Source: Staphylospora marina (lineage in GTDB: Bacteria; Bacillota; Bacilli; Thermoactinomycetales; Thermoactinomycetaceae). From it: DNA of 64,000 nt. Of the stretch, positions 37,584-45,229 are shown in pieces (position 1 is the first letter of the stretch; every line of letters begins with the position of its first letter). The translations under genes were made by a program, and so were the position numbers. The stretch covers positions 2,543,842 to 2,607,841 of the forward strand of contig NZ_CP034118.1 of the NCBI RefSeq assembly GCF_003856495.1. Reading direction: 5' to 3'. The notes beneath the pieces were generated by a model, which saw only the letters and a list, made by a program, of their open reading frames with translations, ran no database searches and was not told the origin of the DNA.

Positions 37584-38558
37584 TCAGTACCAATTTCCGA
37601 TGACGGGCAGCTCCTTGAAGAGAGCCGTCAGGAAAATGTTGAAAATCGCCAGCGGCAAGAGGACTTTCCAGGCAAATTGCATCAGCTGGTCCACCCGGAT
37701 CCTCGGCATGGTGCCCCGAAGCCAGAACAGGAAAAACACGATCGCCACAAACTTGACGGCAAACCAGATGATCGGGGGAATGAAGGTCAGTCCGAACGGC
37801 GCGTTCCATCCACCCAGGAACAGCACGGTGGTCAGCGAAGCCATGGCGAACACGTACACGTATTCGGCCAGCATGAAAAAGGCAAACCGGAACCCGGAAT
37901 ATTCCACGAAATACCCGGCCACCAACTCCGATTCGGCCTCCGGCAGGTCAAAAGGAGTCCGGTTCAGTTCGGAGACGCTTGCGATCAGAAAGACGATGAA
38001 TCCGACGAACTGCGGAAAAATGAACCAAACATCTTTCTGCGCCCGGACGATCTCTTCCAGATTGAGCGAACCGACCGTCATGATGATTCCGACCACCGAC
38101 ATGACGAGCGGGATTTCATAGCTGATCATCTGAGCCGCCGACCGCATGCCGCCCAGGAGGGCGTACTTGTTGTTGGAGGCCCAGGAACCCGCCATGATCC
38201 CGATGATCGTGATGCTGGAAATCGCCATGTAGTACAGGAGTCCCACCGCAAAATCGGAAAACTTGAGCGTGTCGGTGAACGGAATGACGGCCAGGACGGC
38301 AAAGGCCGGCACAAAGGCGATGACCGGCGCAAACTTGAACAGCGATGCGTCCGCCTTGCGGGGCACCACGTCTTCCTTGATCAACAGCTTCAGAACGTCC
38401 GCCACCGTTTGCAAAAGCCCCCAGGGGCCCACCCGGTTCGGACCCGGACGGTTCTGAATCCATCCGAGCACTTTCCGTTCAAACAAAATGGCGTAAGTGA
38501 CGAACAAGAGCACGACGAGCATGAGCAACACCGGCCCGAGCACCATCGACACCTGCAT
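37584..38558 (-). CDS. nuoH: NADH-quinone oxidoreductase subunit H
   Basis: Predicted 324-residue subunit forming the quinone chamber with NuoD and NuoB. GWIQNRPGPNRVGPWGLLQ, the glutamate-rich loop SELNRTPFDLPEAESELVAG and FVEYSGFRFAFFMLAEY are typical. ATG 38558 shares one base with the nuoD stop and follows GAGGTGG. Confidence 0.96.
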   Translation of the reverse strand: MQVSMVLGPVLLMLVVLLFVTYAILFERKVLGWIQNRPGPNRVGPWGLLQTVADVLKLLIKEDVVPRKADASLFKFAPVIAFVPAFAVLAVIPFTDTLKFSDFAVGLLYYMAISSITIIGIMAGSWASNNKYALLGGMRSAAQMISYEIPLVMSVVGIIMTVGSLNLEEIVRAQKDVWFIFPQFVGFIVFLIASVSELNRTPFDLPEAESELVAGYFVEYSGFRFAFFMLAEYVYVFAMASLTTVLFLGGWNAPFGLTFIPPIIWFAVKFVAIVFFLFWLRGTMPRIRVDQLMQFAWKVLLPLAIFNIFLTALFKELPVIGNWY

Positions 38559-39658
38559 CAGCCGTCCACCTCTCCCAACACGATATCGATGCCTCCCAGA
38601 ATGGCCACCAGGTTGGCGATGTTCTGCCCCCGCAGAAGTTCAGGCAAAATTTGCAGGTTCTGGAACGAGGGACGGCGGAATTTGAGTCGCCACGGCTTGT
38701 CTTTTCCTTTGCTCACGATGTGGACGCCCAATTCTCCCCGCGGGGACTCGATGGCGGCATACACCTCGCCTTCGGGTGCACGGAGCACGCGCGGAACTTT
38801 GCCCATGACCGGACCGCTCTCCGGAAACGATTCGACGGCCTGTTCCACGATGCGGAGAGATTCGGCCATCTCCCTCATGCGGCAATGGTATTTGTCCAAA
38901 AGGTCTCCCGTTTCTCCGACCGGAACGTCGAATTCAAACCGGTCGTAAATGGAGTACGGCATGTCTTTGCGCAGATCCCACTTGACCCCGGTCACCCGCA
39001 GATTGGCACCGGACAATCCGTACCGGATGGCCGTTTCCCGATCGTAGATCCCGATTCCGCGGGTCCGTTCCAGAAAGATCTCGTTGCCGCTGATCAAACC
39101 GTGATACTCATCCAGCTTCTCTTTCATGTAGCGGACAAACTCCGCCACCTTTTCGATCCATCCCGGCGGAGCATCCCATTTGACGCCGCCGACACGCATG
39201 TAATTGTATGTGAGTCGGGCACCGCACAATTCGTTGAAAAGATTCAGGATCATCTCCCGGTCGCGGAACGCATACAGGAACGGACTCATCGCTCCCAGAT
39301 CCAGAAGATACGTTCCAAGCCACACCAGATGGCTGGCCACCCGGTTCAGTTCCGTCACGATGACCCGCAGATATTCCGCCCGCTCGGGAACCTCCAGCCC
39401 CATGAGCTTTTCCACCGCGAGGACAATGGCTTGGTTGTTGGTCATGGCGGACAGATAATCCATCCGGTCGGTGTACGGGATGATTTGGGTGTAGTTCAGA
39501 TCTTCCGCCAGCTTTTCCGTTCCCCGGTGCAGATAACCGATCACGGGTTCCGCTTCCACGATCGTCTCCCCGTCGATCCGCACGACCAGCCGGAGCACAC
39601 CGTGGGTGCTGGGATGCTGGGGTCCGACGTTCAGCAGCATCTCTTCGGTTCGGAGCAT
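38558..39658 (-). CDS. nuoD: NADH-quinone oxidoreductase subunit D
   Basis: Predicted 366-residue 49-kDa-type subunit lining the quinone site. NVGPQHPSTHGVLRLV near the N-terminus, YLHRGTEKLAE, and PRGELGVHIVSKG near the C-terminus are family marks. ATG 39658 follows GGGGGTG and begins four bases after nuoC. Confidence 0.96.
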   Translation of the reverse strand: MLRTEEMLLNVGPQHPSTHGVLRLVVRIDGETIVEAEPVIGYLHRGTEKLAEDLNYTQIIPYTDRMDYLSAMTNNQAIVLAVEKLMGLEVPERAEYLRVIVTELNRVASHLVWLGTYLLDLGAMSPFLYAFRDREMILNLFNELCGARLTYNYMRVGGVKWDAPPGWIEKVAEFVRYMKEKLDEYHGLISGNEIFLERTRGIGIYDRETAIRYGLSGANLRVTGVKWDLRKDMPYSIYDRFEFDVPVGETGDLLDKYHCRMREMAESLRIVEQAVESFPESGPVMGKVPRVLRAPEGEVYAAIESPRGELGVHIVSKGKDKPWRLKFRRPSFQNLQILPELLRGQNIANLVAILGGIDIVLGEVDG

Positions 39659-39661
39659 GGC

Positions 39662-40609
39662 TCACACCCCCTGGTCCAGCGGCTCATAGTCTTTGCGAAG
39701 CGGATGCCCCACCCAGTCTTCCGGAAGAAGGATCCTGCGCAGGTCCGGGTGGCCGTCAAACCGGATCCCCATCAGGTCCCAGATTTCCCGCTCGTTCCAG
39801 TCAGCCCCTTTGAAGACCCCGGAGATGCTGGGAAGCACCGCTTCCTCCCGGTCGGTTTTGGTCTTCAACATCACCTGATGCCCGTGCTGGAAGGAGTGAA
39901 GCATCACCACCACTTCCAGATGGGTCTGCTGGTCGATGCTCGACATGAGCCGCAGATAGTCAAACGACAATTCCGGATCATCGCGCATCAATGTGACCGT
40001 CCGGAGCCAATCCTCCTTGCGGATGACCATGACGGGCACATGCCCGGACGGGCGGTTGATGAACGATTCTTCCACCGCGTTCGCGTCCACCTTCTCTTTC
40101 ACGATGGCCACGAACTTGTCCAACAGCGGCTGCTTGGGGGAAGGCTCTTCCGGTTTTTCCTCCTTTTTGGCCGCGGTCCCCCTCGCCGCCGGTCCCGCCG
40201 GCCTCGCTCTTCCCGGCGCCGCCGGAACGGGTCTTCGGGCCGCGGCCGGCTTTTCCGCGCCCCCTTCCGCGGTTTTGCGGATCGGCGCTTTCTTCTCTCC
40301 ATCAGATCCGGCATCCGCCTTGCTCGCCGCGGGAGGCTCTTCCTTTGCACCGGAAGCGGGCTGTGCACCGTCGCCGGAAGCCTCCGCTTTTCCCGAAGCT
40401 CCGGTCGACTCCGCATCCGTCTTTGCCTTTCCGGGATCTCCGGTCTTGGCGGCGGGAGTTTCTCCTTTCCCGTCAGCGGCCGGAGACGGCTGCCCGGCCG
40501 GCTGGCCCGTTTGCTCCGTACCGGATGCATCCGCACCCTCGCGGGCTTCGGGCGAAATGCCGGCCTGCCGACGTTCGTCCATTCCCTGATCTTTGCGATC
40601 GTCGCTCAC
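39662..40609 (-). CDS. nuoC: NADH-quinone oxidoreductase subunit C with long Ala/Pro/Lys-rich N-terminus
   Basis: Predicted 315-residue subunit. The real 30-kDa-type domain spans about 158-315 and has [26 protein letters not shown] and [20 protein letters not shown]. The first 155 residues are low-complexity (Ala, Pro, Gly, Lys, Glu) and look disordered. Similar extensions occur in some Bacillales NuoC; a role in binding an electron donor in place of NuoEFG is speculation. GTG 40609 overlaps the nuoB stop (GTGA) and has AAGGTG eight bases upstream, so the extension is translated if this start is right; ATG codons later exist only at residue 10. Confidence 0.9.
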
Positions 40610-41166
40610 TGACCGGTCACCTTCTTCCCGTGCTTCGCTTCATAACGAATCTTCTCCTGGAGTTTGTGGACGCCGTAAATCAATGCCGCCGGATTGGGCG
40701 GACATCCGGGGATGTAGACATCCACCGGGACGATCTGGTCCACTCCCTTGACCACCGAATACGATTTGACGTACGGTCCTCCGGCGGTGGCGCAGGAGCC
40801 CATGGCAATCACCCACTTCGGCTCCGGCATCTGGTCATACAGCCTCCGAAGCAGGGGAGCCATCTTTTTCGTCACGGTCCCGGCAACGATCATCACGTCA
40901 GCCTGGCGCGGAGACGCACGGAAAATCACCCCGAAGCGGTCGAAGTCGTAGTGGGCTCCGCCCGTCGCCATCATCTCGATCGCGCAACAGGCAAGACCGA
41001 ACGTCAGCGGCCACAGCGAACTGCTGCGCGCCCACGCCTTGATCATCTCCAGATTGGTGGTCAACACATTCCGGGAAAGTTCCCGCTCCTCCTCCGGGGT
41101 CAAATCGGCGAAATCCACCCCGACCGGAACGGAATCCGGCTTCAGATCCGGTTTGTTCACTTCCAT
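40606..41166 (-). CDS. nuoB: NADH-quinone oxidoreductase subunit B
   Basis: Predicted 186-residue subunit holding the terminal cluster N2 next to the quinone. The ligands are the double cysteine in [20 protein letters not shown] and [10 protein letters not shown] 41166 (MEVNKPDL) follows AAGGTG, and it overlaps the end of nuoA by ten bases. Confidence 0.96.
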
Positions 41167-41540
41167 TCCAACACCTTCTTTTTCCAGGCATACACAAGAC
41201 CCAACACCAGGAAAAACAGGAACAAAGCCATTTCCATCAGGATGAACCATCCCAGTTCCCCTCTGAGCATGTCATACACAACCGCCCAGGGATAGAGAAA
41301 CAGGGCTTCGACGTCGAAAATCACGAACAACAGCGCAAACAGGTAATAGCGGACATTGAACTGAACCCAGCTGTCACCGGTCGGGTCCACGCCGCTTTCA
41401 TATGTGATCGCTTTCGCAGGCGTCGGCCGATGGGGTCTGAGCAGCCGACCCATCGTCAGAGCAACGGCCGGAAGCGCCAATCCGACCAGAAAAAAAACGG
41501 CGATGGTCAAATGCGCGGCATCGGTTTTCAAGCATTTCAC
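41157..41540 (-). CDS. nuoA: NADH-quinone oxidoreductase subunit A
   Basis: Predicted 127-residue subunit with three membrane helices; [32 protein letters not shown] are the hallmark stretches. The start is uncertain: GTG 41540 with GGAAGG at five bases, or TTG 41531 with AGGGGTG at six. First gene of the operon, about 390 bases downstream of its likely promoter. Confidence 0.94.
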
Positions 41541-42203
41541 CCCTGCCTTCCTTGGTTACGCTTCCATGGACAAGCGAAGATGTCCGCGCCCATGGACGAA
41601 TGTTCCGTCTCCGCAAGATCCGGAAAAAATGTTTCCGCGGGGCTCCGTACGCCGGAGATGGCCCATCCGGCACCGCAACAATTCTCTTGTCCGATCCATT
41701 GTTTCCTGTATTTTCTTCCCGAAAACCCTTCCGAATCGTCTTTCGGAAGATGAGCGACCCCCGATCGGACACAAATTGTTCAAAAATAAACACATCCAAC
41801 CGGATGGATGTTGAATTTCCATGAAAAAAATTCCGGAAAACTCCTGATGTACCGAAAATGCCGACAGTGCGACAACAATTGCACCGGTCATCTGATCAGC
41901 AGTCCGGGACGGGGCCCCTATTGTTTGATTATACATCACTTTGTCAATTGTGAGAAGATTGGTGGTGCCTGCGATCCGCGGTTTCCCCCGGCGGAACTCC
42001 CCTCGGGGCCACGCCTGCCCGGAGAACCATGAGGATGGAGACGATGTCCCTGTTGCGGTGGCACAACCGGTTCGGGAGCCGCTCGCCCTGTGAACCGCGC
42101 GCGGCTCTGAACATGCATGAATTCTTGGGGGAATGCGCATTCCACCCCGGGTAAAAGTCGCCGGACGGGCATTCGGAGCCCGGGAAGTTTTTTTCGGTCA
42201 GAC
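41541..42203. other. Long leader/intergenic region between nuoA and atpC
   Basis: About 660 bases. The nuo promoter is proposed at 41928-41956, which leaves a roughly 390-base untranslated leader with an imperfect inverted repeat ACATCC/GGATGT near 41791-41812. A plus-strand frame at 42029-42154 (41 residues, MRMETMSLLRWHNRFG start) has GGAGAA before its ATG and an imperfect CGGGC/GCCCG hairpin plus T7 after it, but I recognise nothing in it and rate it unlikely. Confidence 0.4.
41928..41956 (-). promoter_or_regulatory. Candidate sigma-A promoter of the nuo operon
   Basis: On the minus strand TTCTCA (41956-41951), 17-base spacer, perfect TATAAT (41933-41928). A TTGACA lies between them but only eight bases from TATAAT, too close to serve as -35; it may be part of an operator. 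Nothing closer to nuoA matches better. Confidence 0.55.
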
Positions 42204-42245
42204 AAAAAACAGGCATTTCCCGAAAGGAAACTGCCTGTCTTTTTT
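42204..42245. terminator. Terminator after the atp operon
   Basis: ACAGGCA (42209-42215) pairs with TGCCTGT (42232-42238), with an inner TTCC/GGAA; A6 on one side and TCTTTTTT on the other allow action on both strands. It lies 15 bases after the atpC stop. Confidence 0.92.
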
Positions 42246-42260
42246 CAGTCCCGATACGGA

Positions 42261-42542
42261 TCAGTCCCTGTCCGTTTCCGGCACGTCGGCCGATTCGGCC
42301 AGAATGGTGATTTTGTCGGGGCGGACTTCCAGGAAGCCCGATTTCACGGTGTAGTGATCTTCCCGTCCGTCCTTTTTCACGCGCACCACCACGCTTTCCC
42401 TGAGCGGGGTGACGAAGGGAGCATGCTTCGGCAGGATCCCGACGTCTCCCAGAACGGCGCGGGTGATGACCATGTCCACCATGTCGGAATAGACGATGCG
42501 CTCGGGAGTCACGATGTCCAGTTGCACTTTGCTCATGGCCAT
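42261..42542 (-). CDS. atpC: F1 ATP synthase epsilon subunit, C-terminal domain missing
   Basis: Predicted 93-residue epsilon subunit. It contains the whole N-terminal beta-sandwich (VQLDIVTPERIVYSDMVDMV, GDVGILPKHAPFVTPLRES, FLEVRPDKITILAESAD) but ends just where the two C-terminal helices should begin; the normal length is about 130-140. A terminator follows at once, so there is no hidden remainder or simple frameshift. The C-terminal helices bind ATP and inhibit rotation in Bacillus, so latching control may be lost; Chlorobium limicola has a similarly short epsilon. Starts at ATG 42542 or 42536, both with a poor ribosome site, unlike the other atp genes. Confidence 0.9.
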   Translation of the reverse strand: MAMSKVQLDIVTPERIVYSDMVDMVITRAVLGDVGILPKHAPFVTPLRESVVVRVKKDGREDHYTVKSGFLEVRPDKITILAESADVPETDRD

Positions 42543-42593
42543 CCGGCTGCGGTCCGCCGGGCTTCCGCGACCGGAAAAAGAATCTCCGGACGG

Positions 42594-42706
42594 TCATGCC
42601 CTTGCGGAGAGCAACCTTGCACCTCCTTCAACCGGGGAGTTGCCTTGTCCTCCAGATGGATGAACTGCCTGGCCGGGCGAGATCCGAACCCGATTCGGCC
42701 AGGCAG
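42594..42706 (-). promoter_or_regulatory. Spacer before atpC: hairpin plus short leader ORF
   Basis: atpD and atpC are 174 bases apart. On the minus strand CTGCCTGGCCG (42706-42696) pairs with CGGCCAGGCAG (42675-42665), 11 perfect pairs. Then a full-strength Shine-Dalgarno AAGGAGGTG (42628-42620) precedes TTG 42614, which opens a six-codon frame ending at TGA 42596-42594. That frame stops about 50 bases before atpC. The arrangement resembles an attenuation or mRNA-processing device that lowers epsilon output; function is inferred. Confidence 0.5.
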
Positions 42707-42716
42707 TCAGGCTTGG

Positions 42717-44243
<1,527 letters not shown>

Positions 44244-45107
44244 TCAAAGCGCGTTGGCACCGCCGACGATCTCCGCGATCTCCTGCGTGATCGCCGCCTG
44301 ACGCGCCCGGTTGAACTGGAGAACCAGCGTGTCGATGAGCTGGGACGCGTTGTCGGTCGCGTTGCCCATCGCCGTCATTCGTGCCGCATGTTCGCTCGCC
44401 TTGCTGTCAAGCAGCGCGCTGTAGATGAGCGTCTCCGCATAGCGCGGAAGCAATGCGGACAGCACTTCTTCCTGGGACGGTTCAAATTCGTAATCGGTAT
44501 TGACCACGGACTTTTCATCGAGATCGTCTCCGGCCAGCGGAAGCAGACGCTTTTCGACCGGACGTTGCACCACTGCGCTGATGAACTCGTTGTACACGAG
44601 ATACAGCTCGTCGTACTTCTCGTCCGCATAGTACGAAACGGCCTGCTTGGCAATCTCTTTCACGTCGTCATAACGGGGAGAATCGGAAAGACCCGTCACT
44701 TCCCCGATCACCGGCAAGCCCCGGCGTTTGAGGAAGTCGCGACCCTTGCGCCCGATCACGAACAGAACATACTCATCCGTGCTGTTGTGCCGCTTATTCA
44801 GGGTATTGAGCAGCATCCGAAGCAGGTTGGCATTGAAACCCCCCGCCAAACCGCGGTCGGAGGTGATCACCAGATAGCCCGTCTTTTTCACCGGACGGGA
44901 CACGAGCATCGGGTGGTCGGACTTGGTTCCCCGGGCGATGTTCACGATCACCTCACGCAGCTTTTCCGCATAAGGGCGGGCTGCCTGTGCCTGATCCTGG
45001 GCCCGGCGCAATTTGGCCGCGGACACCAGTTTCATCGCCTTGGTGATCTGTTTCGTGTTTTCAACGGAACGAATCCGCCGCTTGATGTCCCGCATCGATT
45101 GCCCCAT
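44244..45107 (-). CDS. atpG: F1 ATP synthase gamma subunit
   Basis: Predicted 287-residue rotor shaft. The N-terminal coiled-coil ([20 protein letters not shown]) and the C-terminal coil ([20 protein letters not shown]) are conserved, with the alpha/beta middle domain ([16 protein letters not shown]) between. ATG 45107 follows AAAGGCGG; an ATG 30 bases upstream lacks a site. Confidence 0.97.
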
Positions 45108-45229
45108 GAAGTTCACCGCCTTTCCGCTGGGCGACACCCGTCCGGGCCTGTCCGAACGGAGCCCGGACGATGCTTCGCCGTGATTGGATGGTGTCGGTTC
45201 AAATCAAGCAATCTGCCGTCAAAGAGCCG

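Follow-up and report, generated by a model that had tools for sequence, protein, structure and literature searches.

The window, a 64,000-nucleotide stretch of the Staphylospora marina genome, contains an atp operon that ends with atpC, the gene for the epsilon subunit of ATP synthase (Table 1). The initial annotation described a gap of 174 bases between atpD and atpC, a weak ribosome-binding site directly at atpC, and a terminator right behind it, and all three are confirmed. The atpD stop codon is at 42717-42719 and the gap runs from 42543 to 42716; the Shine-Dalgarno (SD) sequence immediately 5' of atpC scores -5.0 kcal/mol, versus about -11 for those of atpE, atpF, atpA, and atpD; and the stem and T run of an intrinsic terminator lie 3' of atpC. 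(On the same strand, 3' of the atp operon, there is a nuo gene cluster for complex I, at 38558-41540.)

Table 1. Features of the atpD-atpC region, in window coordinates.
Feature	Position	Strand	Remarks
atpD (beta subunit)	42717..44126	-	DELSEED region intact; own strong direct SD AAGGAGG
post-atpD hairpin CTGCCTGGCC...GGCCAGGCAG	42665..42706	-	folds in the window and in relatives
strong SD AAGGAGGTG, putatively of atpC	42620..42628	-	GGAGGTG invariant in 9 genomes
six-codon TTG frame	42594..42614	-	judged not a gene
bridging hairpin (predicted)	42545..42616	-	core stem GGTTGC/GCAGCC; would bring 79 nt down to 7 nt
atpC	42261..42542	-	epsilon, N-terminal beta-sandwich domain only; 93 aa from ATG 42542
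intrinsic terminator after atpC	about 42209..42238	-	stem ACAGGCA..TGCCTGT, then T run

The hairpin that had been reported just after atpD is there as well; its stem has about 12 pairs rather than 11. Laceyella and T. daqus have the identical stem sequence, followed there by TTTTC. In the window, no T tract follows the hairpin and a terminator scan does not list it. Because the T tract is lacking, strong termination seems unlikely at the window's copy; more speculatively, the hairpin may set or protect the boundary between the atpD and atpC parts of the mRNA. An Rfam scan of the loci returned nothing beyond a chance microRNA match. We also considered whether the intergenic region is a dispersed repeat, and rejected this, as the genome has no second copy of it.

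Domain content and history of the epsilon subunit

We found that the atpC product matches just one domain family, PF02823 (residues 7-85; 97 bits, with a cut-off of 27). The C-terminal domain, PF00401, has no match in the 93 residues, and the protein ends where the two C-terminal helices would begin. (A second in-frame ATG at 42536 would give a 91-residue epsilon, and this start is kept in relatives as MSK.) The AlphaFold model of the protein (pLDDT 89) has beta strands throughout, and the solved structure that it matches best is 8yh8_H, the epsilon subunit of Bacillus PS3 with its C-terminal domain deleted (TM 0.89/0.93). The PF02823 match, the fold, and the place of the gene as the last of the atp operon, 3' of atpD, identify the product as AtpC. 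A regulatory (latching) epsilon would also have the two-helix domain PF00401 and its ATP-binding residues, which this protein lacks, just as the initial annotation had claimed.

A second atpC elsewhere in the genome would have cast doubt on this claim, but the genome, which is 99.8% complete, has a single copy and nothing that would rescue the missing domain: a search of it with the PF00401 profile gave no credible match (best E 0.3, inside a 1184-residue frame). There is next to no chance that the domain only seems to be missing, through a sequencing or frameshift artefact, or that it was relocated elsewhere in the genome. Besides the failed search for PF00401, the terminator occupies the sequence 3' of the atpC stop codon, and the relatives already refute this explanation, as 8 genomes from 6 genera are truncated in the same way, and each has a stop codon of its own.

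To place the truncation, we compared atpC across the 23 available genomes of the family, which represent 15 genera. Epsilon is 84-93 amino acids long in 6 genera (the genus of the window, Laceyella, Lihuaxuella, Paenactinomyces, and two genus-level groups named Thermoactinomyces) and 129-134 amino acids long in the other 9. In the remainder of the order, all of the epsilon frames are long. The initial annotation had proposed this comparison of atpC length and spacing, and had counted relatives with a full-length subunit in this position as evidence against itself. Such subunits do occur, in 9 of the 15 genera, but not in the nearest ones, which share the truncation; what does not stand is the notion of a local oddity.

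A tree of the alpha, gamma, and beta subunits groups the truncated genera, with UFBoot values of 54 for the whole group and 78 for the subclade that includes the window. On this weakly supported tree, the distribution is consistent with, and most simply read as, one old loss of the epsilon tail, in the ancestor of the truncated genera. The gene is single-copy, its N-terminal domain is conserved, and its truncation is common to relatives, as expected of a natural epsilon without a C-terminal domain. By the evidence of these sequences, atpC encodes a genuine, stably inherited "minimal" epsilon subunit.

More broadly, 115 of 121 genomes sampled from the class (Bacilli) have PF00401 above the cut-off. 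Of the remaining six, three belong to this family and two to another, and the last is a genome in whose search set no epsilon could be detected. A second family of Bacilli (f29, two genomes) has an epsilon of about 89-90 amino acids, encoded about 20-30 bases after atpD, and lost the C-terminal domain independently. The tail was therefore lost more than once in Bacilli, and a detached gene is not required for this. Conversely, the full-length genera Croceifilum, Seinonella, and G021 have atpD-atpC gaps of 80-125 bases. Because a short epsilon can go with a short gap and a full-length epsilon with a long one, truncation and gap are separable, and the initial annotation's view of the short epsilon and the detached gene as a single combined story does not survive the comparison. 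In Bacillus relatives, the gap is typically 21-25 nt with a direct SD; Halobacillus and Shouchella have longer gaps, yet still have direct SDs. (In Thermoflavimicrobium daqui, the 5' neighbours of atpC are not atpD but two very long frames, of 1521 and 1399 amino acids, which resemble polyketide or non-ribosomal peptide synthase genes; the operon looks as though it had been interrupted by a biosynthetic cluster.)

A distant Shine-Dalgarno sequence and its candidate link to atpC

The gap also contains a strong SD, AAGGAGGTG, which the initial annotation assigned to a six-codon frame. Elsewhere in the window, strong SD-like sites that have no start codon at a working distance are inside coding frames, so that AAGGAGGTG is the sole one outside coding frames without a gene directly after it. 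We found that GGAGGTGNA..TGC, with a hairpin 3' of it, is conserved in nine genomes from six lineages: the window, two Laceyella, three Thermoactinomyces species, and three Croceifilum-type genomes (three of the nine sequences are near-identical). Three elements never vary among the nine: GGAGGTG, an A closely 3' of it, and a TGC further on. The linear distance from GGAGGTG to the atpC start is 44-79 nt, with the window at the upper end. Furthermore, in most of the nine genomes the local SD of atpC is weak while those of the other atp genes are strong; T. mirandus has a fairly strong local atpC SD (-10.2). Most relatives, whether their gaps are short or long, have an ordinary SD about 8-10 bases 5' of atpC.

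Between the strong SD and the atpC start, a stem-loop is predicted in all nine genomes. In the window, this hairpin, which the initial annotation missed, is larger than the one after atpD; its stem has a pairing probability of 1.00 and leaves 5+2 nt of residual spacing. Folding of the hairpin would leave 7 nt between the SD and ATG 42542 in the window, 8, 8, 9, and 11 nt before the start in four other lineages, and 16 nt in Laceyella, which is long and borderline. The minimum free energy of the window's spacer has a z score of -3.4 relative to dinucleotide shuffles; across the genomes, z ranges from -0.9 to -5.2, and most spacers are more stable than their shuffles. The closing stems vary by lineage, with GGTTGC/GCAGCC in the window and CTGCTAC/GTAGCAG, CTGCTG/CAGCAG, CCTGC/GCAGG, or CTGC/GCAG in others, while the pairing is kept. 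The arms pair more strongly with their own partners than with arms swapped between lineages (14 of 720 permutations were as good, for few independent lineages). The closing stem taken alone is not unusually stable relative to shuffles in the window (109 of 1000 were as good), Laceyella sacchari, or T. daqus.

These observations suggest that AAGGAGGTG is probably atpC's own SD, brought near the start codon by a conserved RNA hairpin. The ribosome would bind at 42620-42628, and the stem-loop at 42545-42616 would fold the spacer away and leave ATG 42542 at about 7 nt. Both hallmarks of a split ribosome-binding site are present, namely a strong, conserved SD that is too distant and, in the predicted folds, a structure that restores the spacing. 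A precedent is found in genes 38 and 25 of T4, in which structure reduces an SD spacing of 22 nt to 5 nt and one of 27 nt to 11 nt, respectively, and in which translation falls if the structure is destabilised (PMC3014915). There too, a hairpin between the SD and the start brings a distant SD to working distance. Unlike the T4 genes, atpC is a cellular ATP-synthase gene, the bridged spacers are 44-79 nt rather than 22-27 nt, and the structure is a predicted one. In the literature, we found no directly comparable split ribosome-binding site from a cellular gene.

What else might the strong SD and the long gap be for? It is improbable that AAGGAGGTG drives a six-codon leader peptide that regulates or dampens atpC and so lowers the amount of epsilon. 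The SD and the frame both exist, and the window's TTG is 7 nt after GGAGG, but the start of the frame is not conserved: the other five lineages have no conserved ATG, GTG, or TTG at that position, where CTG is found instead, and their frames and lengths differ. Also, the TTG sits in the 5' arm of the bridging stem, whose predicted pairing probability is 1.00. For a leader-peptide attenuator, one would expect a short frame 3' of the SD that is conserved along with its start codon, and we did not see one. (A 29-codon frame that runs from a GTG within the SD to the ATGA of atpC was rejected as well; it lacks conservation, and its start would fall within the very SD that serves it.)

It is a little easier to imagine, but still doubtful, that the gap is mainly a transcript boundary, at which the post-atpD hairpin attenuates or stabilises the mRNA so that atpC is expressed at about a third of the level of atpD, with the SD and the second hairpin either decaying or part of the element. 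ATP synthase has one epsilon per three beta subunits, so such a ratio would make sense; also, most of the long-gap relatives have a strong hairpin 3' of atpD, which in Laceyella, T. daqus, and Paenactinomyces is followed by TTTTC or longer T runs. However, the window's copy has no T tract, and a boundary would leave the invariant GGAGGTG and the folded spacer unexplained. It is very unlikely that the gap has a promoter of its own and that atpC is a separate transcript, with the SD and the hairpin as features of its 5' UTR: the gap is long enough, but a crude consensus scan of 42100-42900 identified no sigma-70-like promoter sites.

Overall, we put the probability at roughly 0.6 that the minimal epsilon stems from a single ancestral loss of the tail and that atpC is translated via a split ribosome-binding site. 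The initial annotation had also predicted reduced synthesis of epsilon. Because the strong SD, which is conserved without the short frame and linked to atpC by the hairpin, most likely serves atpC, this prediction is not supported, and epsilon is probably not under-produced.

The split site could also be regulated. When the whole gap is folded, the SD tends to be drawn into pairing with sequence 5' of it and is about 20% unpaired in the window, and the probability of the bridging stem is only 0.28-0.57 in three Thermoactinomyces species. The motif ACTCC, 5' of the SD (window 42620-42660), which reads CACTCC in T. vulgaris and T. mirandus, could base-pair with GGAGG, and in these models such pairing may sequester the SD. 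A split site whose SD is sequestered by upstream sequence would be a structural switch, which could tie the synthesis of epsilon to the translation of atpD. Since the SD pairs upstream in the full-gap folds, such regulation is possible, but it is speculative and we think it less likely than not to operate. As a separate observation, in relatives with a direct SD (L027, L031, L034, L044, L045, and L059), GATGTCC just 5' of the atpC start can pair with GGACATC in codons 6-8, and the loop of the resulting hairpin would contain the start codon; a one-base variant, GATGGCC, is present in the window.

Consequences for ATP synthase and for annotation

The beta-sandwich that joins the gamma subunit to the c-ring is kept, so assembly and coupling should work. 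The two C-terminal helices, which are the ATP-sensing latch in Bacillus and form the part of epsilon that inserts into the catalytic ring, are absent from the sequence, and their function would be lost with them. It is therefore reasonable to expect altered latching of the ATP synthase, as initially proposed. ATP hydrolysis goes up when the epsilon tail is deleted in Bacillus PS3, E. coli, and TA2.A1, but the same deletion lowers ATPase activity and proton pumping in B. subtilis (PMC6692558). Given these opposite effects, the direction of any change in hydrolysis cannot be predicted.

We found no convincing compensating changes in the other atp subunits that all truncated members have in common. 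The two groups differ only at one residue near the N-terminus of gamma and in a variable loop of subunit a. Near the gamma N-terminus (window 45090-45110), all members with a truncated epsilon have Q (M-G/A-Q-S), and nearly all others have A, E, or N.

The window's epsilon resembles the engineered epsilon-deltaC of Bacillus PS3 (8yh8, 87 amino acids) in its length, its beta-sandwich-only fold, and its sequence (48% identity); unlike that protein, it is natural and is fixed in a clade. It also shares an N-terminal domain (about 50% identical) and a place in the operon after atpD with the full-length epsilon of Bacillus PS3, Caldalkalibacillus thermarum, and B. subtilis, which, in contrast, retain the two-helix ATP-sensing domain. 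A natural short epsilon is also known from green sulfur bacteria. Among other natural short epsilons in the literature, we found the case of the alpha-proteobacteria, many of which have a C-terminally truncated, non-inhibitory epsilon; there, inhibition was taken over by the zeta subunit (PMC9317440). The truncation described here adds a new example to a known phenomenon and is stably common to several genera.

If atpC is indeed translated from AAGGAGGTG, its hairpin-bridged ribosome-binding site would be unusual for a cellular gene. It would also be a warning for annotation, as a distant strong SD can serve a gene that seems to have none. For the family, culturable organisms naturally carry what biochemists engineer as epsilon-deltaC, while sister genera keep the full subunit. 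These sister genera with short or full-length epsilon provide a natural experiment on why bacteria retain the epsilon latch.
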